Shown in pieces: positions 26,515 through 31,230 of a stretch of DNA of 50,211 nt. Below the pieces are notes generated by a model that saw only the letters and a list, made by a program, of their open reading frames with translations, made no database searches and was not told the DNA's origin. The first letter of the stretch is position 1; each line of letters begins with the position of its first letter. Location: the NCBI GenBank assembly GCA_902551185.1, contig CACDCN010000008.1, positions 1 through 50,211 on the forward strand, read 5' to 3'. The translations under genes were made by a program, and so were the position numbers. The DNA is from an uncultured SAR86 cluster bacterium. GTDB lineage: Bacteria > Pseudomonadota > Gammaproteobacteria > Magnimaribacterales > D2472.

Positions 26515-28713
26515 ATGCAGCTAAAACACATAAAACTATCAGGTTTTAAAAGTTTCGTCGATCCAACGAAAATATCATTTTCTACCAATATGGTTGGAGT
26601 TGTGGGACCAAATGGATGCGGAAAATCAAATGTTATAGATGCTGTGCGTTGGGTGCTTGGAGAACTTTCAGCAAAAAACCTTCGTGGTGAATCAATGGTG
26701 GATGTTATTTTTAATGGTTCTGAAAAAAGAAAACCTTCTGGTCAATGCAGCATTGAACTTCTTTTTGATAATTCTAATGCCAAAATTGGTGGCGAATATG
26801 CATCTTTTAATGAAGTTTCAATTAAAAGAGTTATGACAAGAGATGCTCAATCAGATTACTTTATTAATAATACAAAATGCAGGAGAAAAGATGTCCAAGA
26901 TATTTTTCTTGGTACTGGTTTAGGCCCAAGTTCTTATGCAATTATTGAACAGGGAATGGTTAGCAAGCTTGTAAGTGCAAAACCAGATGAACTTAGAACC
27001 CATATTGAAGAAGCTGCTGGGGTATCCAAATACAGAGAAAGAAGAAGGGAAACAGAGTCAAGAATTAAACGCACAAAAGAAAATCTCTCAAGGGTAAAAG
27101 ATATACGCGATGAAATTGGAAGACTTATCAGAAGATTGGAAAATCAAGCCAAAGCTGCAGATAAGTACAATAAACTTAAAAAAGATAAAACAAAATTAGA
27201 GCTTGATAAAGCAATATTATTTTCGATGGAAGCAAAAAATAATCGAGATAAATTGCAGAAGAAATTGGATGCACATAATCGTGACCTGAAAATCAAAAAT
27301 GCTGAATCAGAAACAATCCAATCACAAATAGATCAATTTAGAACTGAGAATGAGTCCTTATTGAGTGAATATGAATTAGCGCAAAAGAATTTCTATGCAG
27401 TTGGTGCAGAAATTGCAAAAAGAGAAGCTAATTTACAAAATATTAATAAATCAGAATCAGAGACTAAATATAGCCTTCAAAAAGCAAAAGATAATTATGA
27501 AAAAGCCAAAGAAACTGAGAAAAATTTTGATGAATTAAGTCCAAGTGAGAAAGCTATGCATATCCTGGATAGCATCATCCTTACAATAGATAAATTTAAC
27601 ATTAATAATGAAAGTATTAGAGAAAAAGCTAAGGAGCTTAAAAAATTACTTACAGAAATTTTAAATGTTGCATCAGCTCAATCAAAAACATTAACCGATG
27701 AATATCTTTCTCGTCAAAATGATTTAGAGGAACAAATCGAGGAAGCAGAAAAGCTTAAGAGCTCTATCCAGGATGAAATGAAAGACTTTGTAAGTAAAAG
27801 CTCAGATGCAGAGTCAATTCTAGTCGCACTTAGACAAAAACAATCAAAATTTAATGATGAAATGAGAGATCTAGAAAATAAAAAATCTATTTCAGATTTA
27901 GACTCTAAATCTATTTCTGAAAAAATAACAAATATTCGTCTTGAGCTCAAAACATATGAAATAAATCTAGATAATTCAAATAAAAAAATTAAGGAAGCTG
28001 GAATAGATATTGATACTGTTAATTTTTCAGATTATGAAGATACGACATTAGATGAAATCGAAGATAACTTAACTGATATAGAAACTAAAATAATTAGATT
28101 GGGCGCAATTAACCTAGCTGCACCAGAAGAGATTGCGGATGAATCAAAAAGAAAAGAAGAACTCGATGAGCAATATGATGACCTTACAGAAGCATTAGAT
28201 AAACTTAATGGCGCTATTAAGAAAATTGATAACGAAACAAAAACAATATTCAAAGATAGTTTTGATGCTGTTAATTTAAAGCTTAAAGAAATGTTTCCAA
28301 AGTTATTTGGGGGAGGTGTTGCTGAGCTCACCTTAACCGATGATGATCCATTGCATGCTGGAGTAGTTTTAATGGCAAGACCTCCAGGAAAAAAGAATTC
28401 ATCTATTTCACAATTATCAGGTGGAGAAAAGGCTTTAACGGCTTTAGCTTTAGTGTTTGCTATTTTTGATCTTAATCCAGCACCATTTTGTTTATTAGAT
28501 GAAGTAGACGCACCTTTAGACGACTTAAATACTCTTCGATTTATAAATATGGTTGAAGAAATGTCAAAGTCGATACAATTTATTTTTATTACTCATAATA
28601 AAGTTTCTATGGAGCGAAGTGATTATTTAATGGGAGTTACAATGCAAGAGGCTGGTGTTTCAAGAATGGTATCCGTTGACGTCAATCAAGCACTTAAATT
28701 AGCTGAATCATAA
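26515..28713 (+). CDS. smc: Chromosome segregation protein Smc, short form without recognisable hinge
   Basis: N-head: LSGFKSFVDPT, GPNGCGKSNVIDAVRWVLGE. C-head: RLGAINLAAPEE, LSGGEKALTALALVFAIF, APFCLLDEVDAPLDDLN, FIFITHNKVSMERSDYLMGVTM. Total 732 aa. Confidence 0.93.
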   Translation: MQLKHIKLSGFKSFVDPTKISFSTNMVGVVGPNGCGKSNVIDAVRWVLGELSAKNLRGESMVDVIFNGSEKRKPSGQCSIELLFDNSNAKIGGEYASFNEVSIKRVMTRDAQSDYFINNTKCRRKDVQDIFLGTGLGPSSYAIIEQGMVSKLVSAKPDELRTHIEEAAGVSKYRERRRETESRIKRTKENLSRVKDIRDEIGRLIRRLENQAKAADKYNKLKKDKTKLELDKAILFSMEAKNNRDKLQKKLDAHNRDLKIKNAESETIQSQIDQFRTENESLLSEYELAQKNFYAVGAEIAKREANLQNINKSESETKYSLQKAKDNYEKAKETEKNFDELSPSEKAMHILDSIILTIDKFNINNESIREKAKELKKLLTEILNVASAQSKTLTDEYLSRQNDLEEQIEEAEKLKSSIQDEMKDFVSKSSDAESILVALRQKQSKFNDEMRDLENKKSISDLDSKSISEKITNIRLELKTYEINLDNSNKKIKEAGIDIDTVNFSDYEDTTLDEIEDNLTDIETKIIRLGAINLAAPEEIADESKRKEELDEQYDDLTEALDKLNGAIKKIDNETKTIFKDSFDAVNLKLKEMFPKLFGGGVAELTLTDDDPLHAGVVLMARPPGKKNSSISQLSGGEKALTALALVFAIFDLNPAPFCLLDEVDAPLDDLNTLRFINMVEEMSKSIQFIFITHNKVSMERSDYLMGVTMQEAGVSRMVSVDVNQALKLAES

Positions 28714-29328
28714 ATGACTACCAATTCAGAAATTTATTTAATTGGACTAGCCATATTAATATTTTTAATAATAGTATTTTTGTATATAAGAAAAATTTCG
28801 AACTCGAGCAAACTTAAACTTAGGATTGAGGACGAGCCTAATTCGCTCGAATCTTCTGAGGTAGATTCAAATATTAATAATCAACAACTCTTTGAATATG
28901 AGGACAGTAAGAAAGAGCAAGAGTTAGCAATTTTAAATTTAATTTCTATAGACAGATCTATGTATGATATAGAGCAGTTCTTTGGATTTCTTTCTAACTA
29001 TGGCGCAAAAATCAACAATAAATTTTTCTCTTTCAATAATGAAGATGGAATGGAAAGATTTAGAGTTATAAATGCATTAAACCCTGGTACTTTTGAAAAC
29101 GATACAAAGACCTTTGCAATTGCAATTGTTGCAGATCTTATGTCGGCAGATGATCCATTAGATACAGTAAAACAAATGGTTGAATTTTCTATAAATTTTG
29201 CTGATAAATTTCACGCATCCCTTTGCGATGAAGAAAGGACCCCAATCACGAAACAAATGATTTCACATATGGAATCCAGGGCTCAAGATGTAGCAAGAAT
29301 AAAACAACTTTCTAACCATAATGATTAA
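28714..29328 (+). CDS. zipA: Cell division protein ZipA-like
   Basis: N-terminal TM anchor, short linker, C-terminal domain with FSFNNEDGMERFRVINALNPGTF; position right after smc. Confidence 0.75.
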   Translation: MTTNSEIYLIGLAILIFLIIVFLYIRKISNSSKLKLRIEDEPNSLESSEVDSNINNQQLFEYEDSKKEQELAILNLISIDRSMYDIEQFFGFLSNYGAKINNKFFSFNNEDGMERFRVINALNPGTFENDTKTFAIAIVADLMSADDPLDTVKQMVEFSINFADKFHASLCDEERTPITKQMISHMESRAQDVARIKQLSNHND

Positions 29329-29345: not shown

Positions 29346-30632
29346 ATGAATGATCCTTGGAAAATTATCAAAGAATTAGAAAGCGATAATAGCCGTTTAT
29401 TTAAAGAGGATGTTGTTGAAAATAATTTGAATAATATTGAATTTCAAGAAGGTCTTTCAATGTGCTTAGATCCACTTATAACCTTTGGAGTAAAACAAGT
29501 TCCAGAATCAGAACAAGATGGAGATGGTTTGAAATGGGATGACTTTAAGAAAGATATTGATCTATTAGTTGAAAGAGAAAAAACAGGCCATGCAGCTAGA
29601 GATTTAATAATTGACTTAATGAGTTCTGCTAAAAAAGATCAATGGAATGATTGGTATAGAAGAATATTAATAAAAGATCTTAGGTGTGGCGTGAGTGAAA
29701 AAACAGTCAATAATGTTGCAAAAAGAATGGATTTAGAATTTAAAGTTCCAATTTTTTCATGCATGCTTGCACATGATGGTGCAAAACATCCAAAAAAGAT
29801 AAAAGGAGATTGTTTAGTTGAATATAAATATGACGGGGTTAGAGTAATCGCTATAGTTAAGAATGGAAAAGCAACTTTATATAGTCGTAATGGAAAAATA
29901 TTTCATAATTTCCCCCATATCGAGAATGCTTTAAGCAAATCTGAATACAATAATATTGTATTTGATGGAGAGGTTATGAGCGATGATTTCCAAGCTTTAA
30001 TGAAACAAGTTTATAGAAAATCAGGAGCTCAAACAGATGATGCTTATCTTGCTCTATTTGATATTCTTCCATTGAAAGAATTTAATGAAGGTAAAAGTAA
30101 ACTTAGTTCAATTGAAAGAAAAAAGGAATTAAATAAGCTATCAAAGAGTTTTGAAAATGCAATCAAATTAGTAGATTATGAAGTAATAAATTTTGATGAA
30201 AAGAATGGTCAGGATAAATTTGCAAGCATGAATAAAGAAGCTTTAGAGAAAGGCTTCGAAGGCTTAATGATCAAACCAAATGATAATTATTATGAATGCA
30301 AAAGAAGCCATGCTTGGTTAAAAATCAAACCTTTTATTGAGGTTACTTTAAAAATTATAGATATTCAGGAGGGTACTGGAAAACATTCCGGTAAGCTGGG
30401 CGCATTTCATGTAGAGGGTGATGATGATGGAAAATTCTTTTCATTAAGTGTAGGCAGCGGTTTAACTGACGAGGAAAGAGAGAAATTTTGGGCATCAAAA
30501 GACAAACTAATAGGAAGACTTGTTGAAATTAGAGCAGATGCAATAACTCAAAGCATTGAAGGAGAACATTACAGCTTGAGATTCCCTAGATTCAAAAATT
30601 TTAGAGGTTTTAAAAAGGATGAAAAAATATAA
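29346..30632 (+). CDS. ATP-dependent DNA ligase, T4 gp30-like
   Basis: Motif I EYKYDGVRV (KxDG), IVFDGEV (motif III), EGLMIKP (motif IV), WLKIKPF (motif V), LRCGVSEKTVNNV N-terminal element. Confidence 0.92.
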   Translation: MNDPWKIIKELESDNSRLFKEDVVENNLNNIEFQEGLSMCLDPLITFGVKQVPESEQDGDGLKWDDFKKDIDLLVEREKTGHAARDLIIDLMSSAKKDQWNDWYRRILIKDLRCGVSEKTVNNVAKRMDLEFKVPIFSCMLAHDGAKHPKKIKGDCLVEYKYDGVRVIAIVKNGKATLYSRNGKIFHNFPHIENALSKSEYNNIVFDGEVMSDDFQALMKQVYRKSGAQTDDAYLALFDILPLKEFNEGKSKLSSIERKKELNKLSKSFENAIKLVDYEVINFDEKNGQDKFASMNKEALEKGFEGLMIKPNDNYYECKRSHAWLKIKPFIEVTLKIIDIQEGTGKHSGKLGAFHVEGDDDGKFFSLSVGSGLTDEEREKFWASKDKLIGRLVEIRADAITQSIEGEHYSLRFPRFKNFRGFKKDEKI

Positions 30633-31230
30633 AATTAATTATTTTTTATTTCTAATAGCAATTATTTTTATACAATCATGTGCTACAAGACCGCCTGAAA
30701 ATCCTGACAATATATGCTTAATCTTTAAAGAGAAAAAAAATTGGTATAAGGCAGCAATTAGAAGTGAGAAACGTTGGAAAATACCACCATATGTTTTAAT
30801 GTCCTTTGTCTATCAGGAATCAAGTTTTAAAGCTGATGCAAGGCCTGAAAGAGAAAAAATATTAGGTTTTATTCCTTGGTTTAGACCTTCTTCTGCTGTT
30901 GGCTATTCCCAGGCCTTAAAGAATACATGGGAAGATTATAAAGATGAAACTGGAAATAGTAGGGCAAATAGGAAAGATTTTTATGACTCAGCTGATTTTA
31001 TTGGATGGTATGCCAGTAAAGGATACTATCAAGGTTTTGAAAAAACAGATGCTAGATCTTTATATCTTGCCTATCATGAAGGGTATGGAGGTTTTGAAAA
31101 GAAAACCTACAGAAAGAAACAATGGTTGATTAAAGTTGCCGACAGAGTTCAGGCTAAATCAACAAAATATCAAAAACAATACTGGGGATGTGCAAAAGAA
31201 TTAAAAAGAAAAAGGTTTTTATTTTTTTAG
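30619..31230 (+). CDS. Lipoprotein with lytic transglycosylase (SLT)-like domain
   Basis: Lipobox IIFIQSCAT; YVLMSFVYQESSFKADARP; SAVGYSQALKNTW; AYHEGYGGF. Confidence 0.8.
   Translation: MKKYKINYFLFLIAIIFIQSCATRPPENPDNICLIFKEKKNWYKAAIRSEKRWKIPPYVLMSFVYQESSFKADARPEREKILGFIPWFRPSSAVGYSQALKNTWEDYKDETGNSRANRKDFYDSADFIGWYASKGYYQGFEKTDARSLYLAYHEGYGGFEKKTYRKKQWLIKVADRVQAKSTKYQKQYWGCAKELKRKRFLFF

Follow-up and report, generated by a model that had tools for sequence, protein, structure and literature searches.

The chromosomal slot that holds ligA, the gene of the NAD-dependent DNA ligase LigA, in a number of SAR86 cluster bacteria is occupied in others by an ATP-dependent DNA ligase of phage type, which is the sole detectable ligase and thus most likely the replicative one. 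This reading is considered very likely (a probability of approximately 0.88), its replicative part being inferred from the absence of any other detected ligase in the genome, and not from an assay. In general, LigA is viewed as the ligase that is conserved and essential in bacteria, and also as a target for antibacterials. The window (the whole stretch of DNA that was analysed) comprises 50,211 nt of contig CACDCN010000008.1 from SAR86 assembly GCA_902551185.1, and the related genomes in the collection come from SAR86 cluster bacteria, including SAR86A scaffold JH611156 and the complete chromosome CP097973.1. The features of the locus are the following:

26515-28713, + strand: smc, the beginning of the smc-zipA-ligase block (TIGR02168, E=9.5e-245; synteny)
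28714-29328, + strand: zipA, the 5' flank of the ligase slot (PF04354 ZipA_C, 2.9e-11; adjoins either ligase type in relatives)
29346-30632, + strand: ATP-dependent DNA ligase, 428 aa (open reading frame with ATG start; PF01068, PF14743, phrog_114)
29820-29837, + strand: motif I EYKYDG of the ligase, with the predicted adenylated lysine K161 (invariant residues in alignment; homology to motif I of Pmar-Lig)
30619-31230, + strand: SLT_4 lytic transglycosylase gene, the 3' flank (PF19489, 2e-72; in relatives, located behind either ligA or the ATP ligase)

The ligase reading frame is intact, and the encoded protein displays, in order, a helical DNA-binding N-terminus, a nucleotidyltransferase (NTase) domain, and an OB domain. 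Pfam models DNA_ligase_A_M (PF01068) and DNA_ligase_OB_2 (PF14743) match residues 149-328 (1.3e-23) and the C-terminal residues 342-420 (1.4e-11), respectively, while PHROG 114, annotated as 'ATP-dependent DNA ligase', covers residues 6-425 (1.3e-93). The NTase domain carries motif I (KxDG) as well as motifs III-V; EYKYDG, FEGLMIKP, and AWLKIKP are all present, and an alignment with nine relatives reveals that K161, D163, G164, E209, E305, G306, K310, K326, K328, and P329 are invariant. The best solved relative is Pmar-Lig from Prochlorococcus marinus (6RAU), which matches at full length, from residue 6 onwards, with E=4e-137. An AF2 model of the ligase (mean pLDDT 79.6, pTM 0.60) leaves the domain arrangement uncertain; it depicts the N-terminal DNA-binding domain as compact and helical, with seven helices in residues 4-127, and a structure search with this model returned Pmar-Lig first, and T4 ligase (6DT1) next. 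The dN/dS values of 0.05-0.07 measured against three relatives indicate that the gene is kept as a functional protein under strong purifying selection.

Other ligase types were also considered. A domain search of the protein for NAD-type parts (DNA_ligase_aden, zinc finger, HhH, and BRCT) detected none of these, and NCBIfam models for ligases of the LigB, C, D, and E types match only far below their cut-offs (TIGR02779 with 97 of 227 bits, PRK09125 with 75 of 200 bits). The protein is therefore an ATP-dependent DNA ligase of the T4/Pmar type (DBD-NTase-OB), an assignment that is shown at the level of domains; ATP-dependent nick sealing is inferred from Pmar-Lig, for which it has been demonstrated (PMC6698739). 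An earlier note, made from sequence alone, had proposed a 428-residue ATP-dependent ligase downstream of smc-zipA, with motifs EYKYDGVR, EGLMIKP, and WLKIKP, and distinct from the LigD and LigB/C types, and all of these claims held. Its suggestion that the N-terminal layout resembles that of T4 gp30 held only in part, since architecture and fold agree but close kinship is not supported; by sequence, the ligase belongs with Pmar-Lig and marine phage ligases.

Comparison with characterized enzymes underlines both points. Pmar-Lig (6RAR/6RAS/6RAU/6RCE; PMC6698739) is a full-length homologue with about 50% identity in structural alignment and the same three-domain layout, and it does not need the region of the T4 clamp-binding loop; the Prochlorococcus host, however, retains LigA, with Pmar-Lig being one of its three accessory ATP ligases, whereas the SAR86 enzyme is the sole ligase and stands in the ligA slot. 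T4 gp30 shares fold and domain order, but has 487 residues, and the two proteins align only in part, with about 24% identity. SAR86 LigA, in turn, shares the slot and the presumed role, but is unrelated in family and cofactor, the ATP ligase having no zinc finger, HhH, or BRCT.

Evidence for displacement in place comes from the locus itself. Only 17 bp separate zipA from the ligase start, and the ligase stop overlaps the SLT_4 gene by 14 bp; in the LigA-bearing relatives examined, ligA sits between these same two genes. Two such genomes, G133 and G190, belong to the window's own genus and carry ligA in the zipA-SLT_4 slot, while their smc, zipA, SLT_4, and M16 genes are of the kind usual in this genus. 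Since the ligA of relatives, including two members of the same genus, occupies the identical slot, displacement in place is directly evidenced.

Two further observations concern this block. The neighbouring SMC protein has only 732 residues, yet matches the 1181-position bacterial SMC model TIGR02168 (9.5e-245), and no SMC_hinge domain (PF06470) was detected at E<=1 either in this protein or in seven other SAR86 SMCs (from L065, L071, L077, L074, L078, L079, and L082) that span four families and include versions of about 1000 aa. It is conceivable that SAR86 SMC is hinge-less and short-armed. In addition, genome G001 of family f2 carries in its zipA-SLT_4 slot (L076, 4744-6603, - strand) a very divergent NAD-type ligase of 619 aa, which is about 26% identical to other SAR86 LigA, scores under the LigA equivalog cut-offs, and apparently has E in place of the motif IV lysine (DGVVLEV). 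It also displays distant matches to phage NAD ligases (28%), and the search did not find a close viral relative. A further exchange at this slot is a possibility for G001.

The absence of LigA was examined at several scales. No LigA adenylation domain was detected in the window or in the 920-kb assembly it comes from (38 contigs, 77% complete), where a single PF01068 ligase is present and the full-length LigA model yields no more than a weak match, which is not a ligase; given this completeness, the case for absence in the window's own genome leans on relatives. LigA was likewise not found in the complete SAR86 chromosome CP097973.1 (G223/L129, the same 1,325,892-base contig as G030), in G006 (a single contig, 95% complete), or in the other near-complete genomes G002, G022, and G086. 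Divergent LigA candidates were rejected as not being ligases: they matched TIGR00575 weakly (E of 7e-8 or weaker), at model positions 444-568 only, and lay in frames of approximately 560-615 aa. It is of note that in the near-complete single-cell record of G002 (L068) the ligase and the neighbouring M16 genes are both frameshifted; with M16 also broken in the same record, sequencing error is likelier than a ligase pseudogene.

In an order-wide sample of 200 genomes, LigA was found in 130 and the ATP ligase in 41, and every ATP-ligase genome of the order belongs to the window's family. Within this family (n=104), 45 genomes have LigA only, 40 the ATP ligase only, one has both, and 18 have neither, a pattern of mutual exclusion whose Fisher p of 1.3e-13 is descriptive, related genomes not being independent. 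The one apparent two-ligase genome, G172, was rejected as such: it is spread over 260 contigs with 2% contamination, and its LigA fragment has no match to SAR86 LigA at 1e-20. Eight genomes of the window's genus lack both a PF01068 match and LigA; six of these are also without zipA, in G169 zipA lies at a contig end, and in G010 a ligase fragment is cut by the contig end. The locus is thus missing or cut in all eight, which accounts for the lack of a ligase and led to the rejection of a third ligase type in this genus, an explanation that covers the window's genus only and not all 18 family genomes.

A phage connection emerges from ligase trees, in which the SAR86 ligases fall into a single clade (100/99), itself nested in a larger one that otherwise consists of phage ligases. 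Ligases from IMG/VR contigs reach 66% identity over full length, the nearest group (58-66%) being that of uncultured marine T4-like phages, while ligases of cultured phages attain at most 33%. In the sampled IMG/VR contigs, the genes near the ligase include those for a clamp loader, UvsX, a DnaB-like helicase, a single-strand binding protein, and a phage exonuclease; these enzymes of the same clade are hence encoded among phage replication genes, and not in a bacterial operon. Further phage ligases branch outside the joint SAR86-phage clade, as well as around Pmar-Lig, and on these outgroups rests the likely, though not proven, direction from phage to SAR86. The opposite transfer, from bacterium to phage, cannot be strictly ruled out, since a constrained tree in which the phage members of this clade form the sister group of the SAR86 ligases survives the AU test (p=0.26). 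A phage origin has also been proposed for some accessory bacterial ligases (PMC8455567; PMC6698739). As a separate observation, ligases of Rickettsiales MED657, Pacearchaeota ARS103, and a Pelagibacter bin (L138/L139, L137, and L141) sit among viral ones, and that of the MED657 contig is identical to the ligase of IMG/VR contig L256, which suggests that these are probably binned phage contigs.

These results bear on the remaining claims of the earlier note. The statement that the window contains no LigA held and extends to the whole assembly, and the search for a normal ligA elsewhere, which would have refuted replacement, found none there, in CP097973.1, or in G006. The proposed phylogeny groups the ligase with phage enzymes and not with non-phage bacterial ligases, and the survey of smc-zipA neighbourhoods in related genomes encountered either ligA or the ATP ligase in the same slot. 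In-situ displacement by a phage-derived ligase is therefore supported, the phage-derived direction being the best reading; that the newcomer serves as the replicative ligase remains an inference from its being the only one found.

The slot seems to have changed hands more than once. On an rpoB tree, ligase type changes at least 6 times, and the clearest case is that of G098, the other typed members of whose genus g7 (G078 and G185) have LigA. The G098 ATP ligase is 88% identical to those of genus g3 and nests among them, a tree that holds g3 together without G098 being rejected (AU p=0.0003); its zipA, SLT_4, and M16 proteins, by contrast, are closest to its own genus. With a ligase from g3 and native flanks, only the ligase gene moved. 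The LigA of exceptional genomes is ordinary SAR86 LigA by phylogeny, and for G133, G190, G129, and G156 both reversion and a LigA that was never replaced still stand. Acquisition of the ATP ligase is old in the lineage, with later spread by transfer within SAR86.

The proposed history has three steps. A T4-like phage ligase would have entered one SAR86 lineage, a step for which the trees show one SAR86 clade attached to ligases of marine phages, and the direction is inferred. The newcomer would then have taken over the sealing of Okazaki fragments and of repair nicks, NAD-dependent LigA being lost from the slot; mutual exclusion, identical position, and purifying selection are shown here, and function is inferred. 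Lastly, the slot would have come to be filled by either ligA or the ATP ligase, with SAR86 cells exchanging the two genes through recombination in the flanks that they have in common; a ligase-only move is shown for G098, and recombination as the general mechanism is inferred, breakpoints not having been mapped. By homology to Pmar-Lig (PMC6698739), the DNA-binding, NTase, and OB domains are predicted to encircle the nicked duplex, with K161 being adenylated by ATP instead of NAD+, and pyrophosphate being released instead of NMN, before the nick is sealed. Essentiality, clamp contact, and function in vivo are likewise inferred.

From the chemistry of the two ligase types, replacement of LigA ends both the consumption of NAD+ and the release of NMN by the ligase. 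Families f2 and f3 have a true NMN deamidase, PncC (PF02464, about 1e-50), which was absent from the f1 and f4 genomes searched, where only weak matches inside longer frames were encountered. PncC is missing throughout the window's family whichever ligase is present, as well as in f4, which keeps LigA; its loss does not track ligase type, and NMN recycling was therefore rejected as the sole explanation of the switch. The loss of PncC may nevertheless have predisposed the lineage to it, a suggestion that is no more than possible.

A related ATP ligase, about 47-53% identical, also occurs in a conserved chromosomal context in an alphaproteobacterial order of marine bacteria, that of G203, which includes HIMB59-MED-G10 (L140-L165). 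LigA was found in only one of 32 genomes of this HIMB59-like order, and a strong ATP-ligase match in 24. A joint clade of HIMB59-like and SAR86 ligases is rejected (AU p=5.5e-6), and the two acquisitions are therefore separate. The alphaproteobacterial genome G231 has both ligase types, which indicates that their coexistence is possible.

Four other explanations were weighed against displacement by a phage-type ligase. The first holds that the ligase arose in bacteria and was picked up from SAR86 by marine T4-like phages. In its favor, a tree in which the SAR86 and the phage members of the joint clade are each monophyletic could not be rejected; against it, phage ligases also lie outside the joint clade and near Pmar-Lig, LigA is widespread across the order, and the ATP ligase occurs in only a single family of it, which together render this reading unlikely. 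The second, also improbable, does away with repeated exchange by invoking an ancestor with both genes, of which each lineage lost one. The ordinary LigA of the exceptional genomes allows part of the type changes to be differential loss, and G133 and G190 remain compatible with it; both genes, however, share one single slot, they do not occur together in any clean SAR86 genome, and this reading is refuted for G098, whose ligase comes from another genus. The third, considered very unlikely, views the enzyme as an accessory or repair ligase, LigA having been missed in incomplete assemblies and nothing having been replaced. The incompleteness of the window's genome and the retention of LigA in Prochlorococcus alongside Pmar-Lig (PMC6698739) favor it, but LigA is missing in a complete chromosome as well as in several genomes that are >90% complete, mutual exclusion at the same slot is near-perfect, and for CP097973.1 this reading is refuted. 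Lastly, an artefact in which phage contigs entered SAR86 genomes through binning or misassembly, as suggested by bins of other taxa such as MED657, is all but excluded: the SAR86 gene belongs to a chromosomal block that is conserved in single cells and MAGs as well as in a complete chromosome, and the gene order of the latter, CP097973.1 (L070), refutes this reading.

Displacement by a phage-type ligase thus remains the preferred reading. Loss of an NAD ligase in the presence of an ATP ligase is already on record in Babela massiliensis (TM6; PMC4378268), as in SAR86; Babela, however, is an amoeba parasite with a reduced genome, and the relevant passage describes neither same-slot exchange nor a phage phylogeny. 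No report on DNA ligase in SAR86 or HIMB59 was found in the literature searched, outside of which most subscription journals lie, nor did this literature yield anything relevant on the complementation of ligA(ts) by T4 ligase. Same-slot, repeated exchange in free-living bacteria appears to be new.

Among the very abundant bacteria of the ocean, entire lineages appear to rely on an ATP ligase of phage type for replication. Since the exchange took place in one slot, repeatedly, and at least once demonstrably without genes other than that of the ligase, SAR86 can serve as a natural experiment on the swapping of an essential replication enzyme, and could also inform whether a replicative ligase must adapt to the bacterial clamp. 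A bolder reading, for which the evidence tips neither way, is that NAD-type and phage-type ATP ligases have been repeatedly traded in both directions at the SAR86 slot by gene-precise recombination, with a separate replacement in an order of marine Alphaproteobacteria. If true, this would point to a recurrent selective pressure in the ocean to switch the cofactor of an essential replication enzyme, such as NAD economy or phage attack on LigA.
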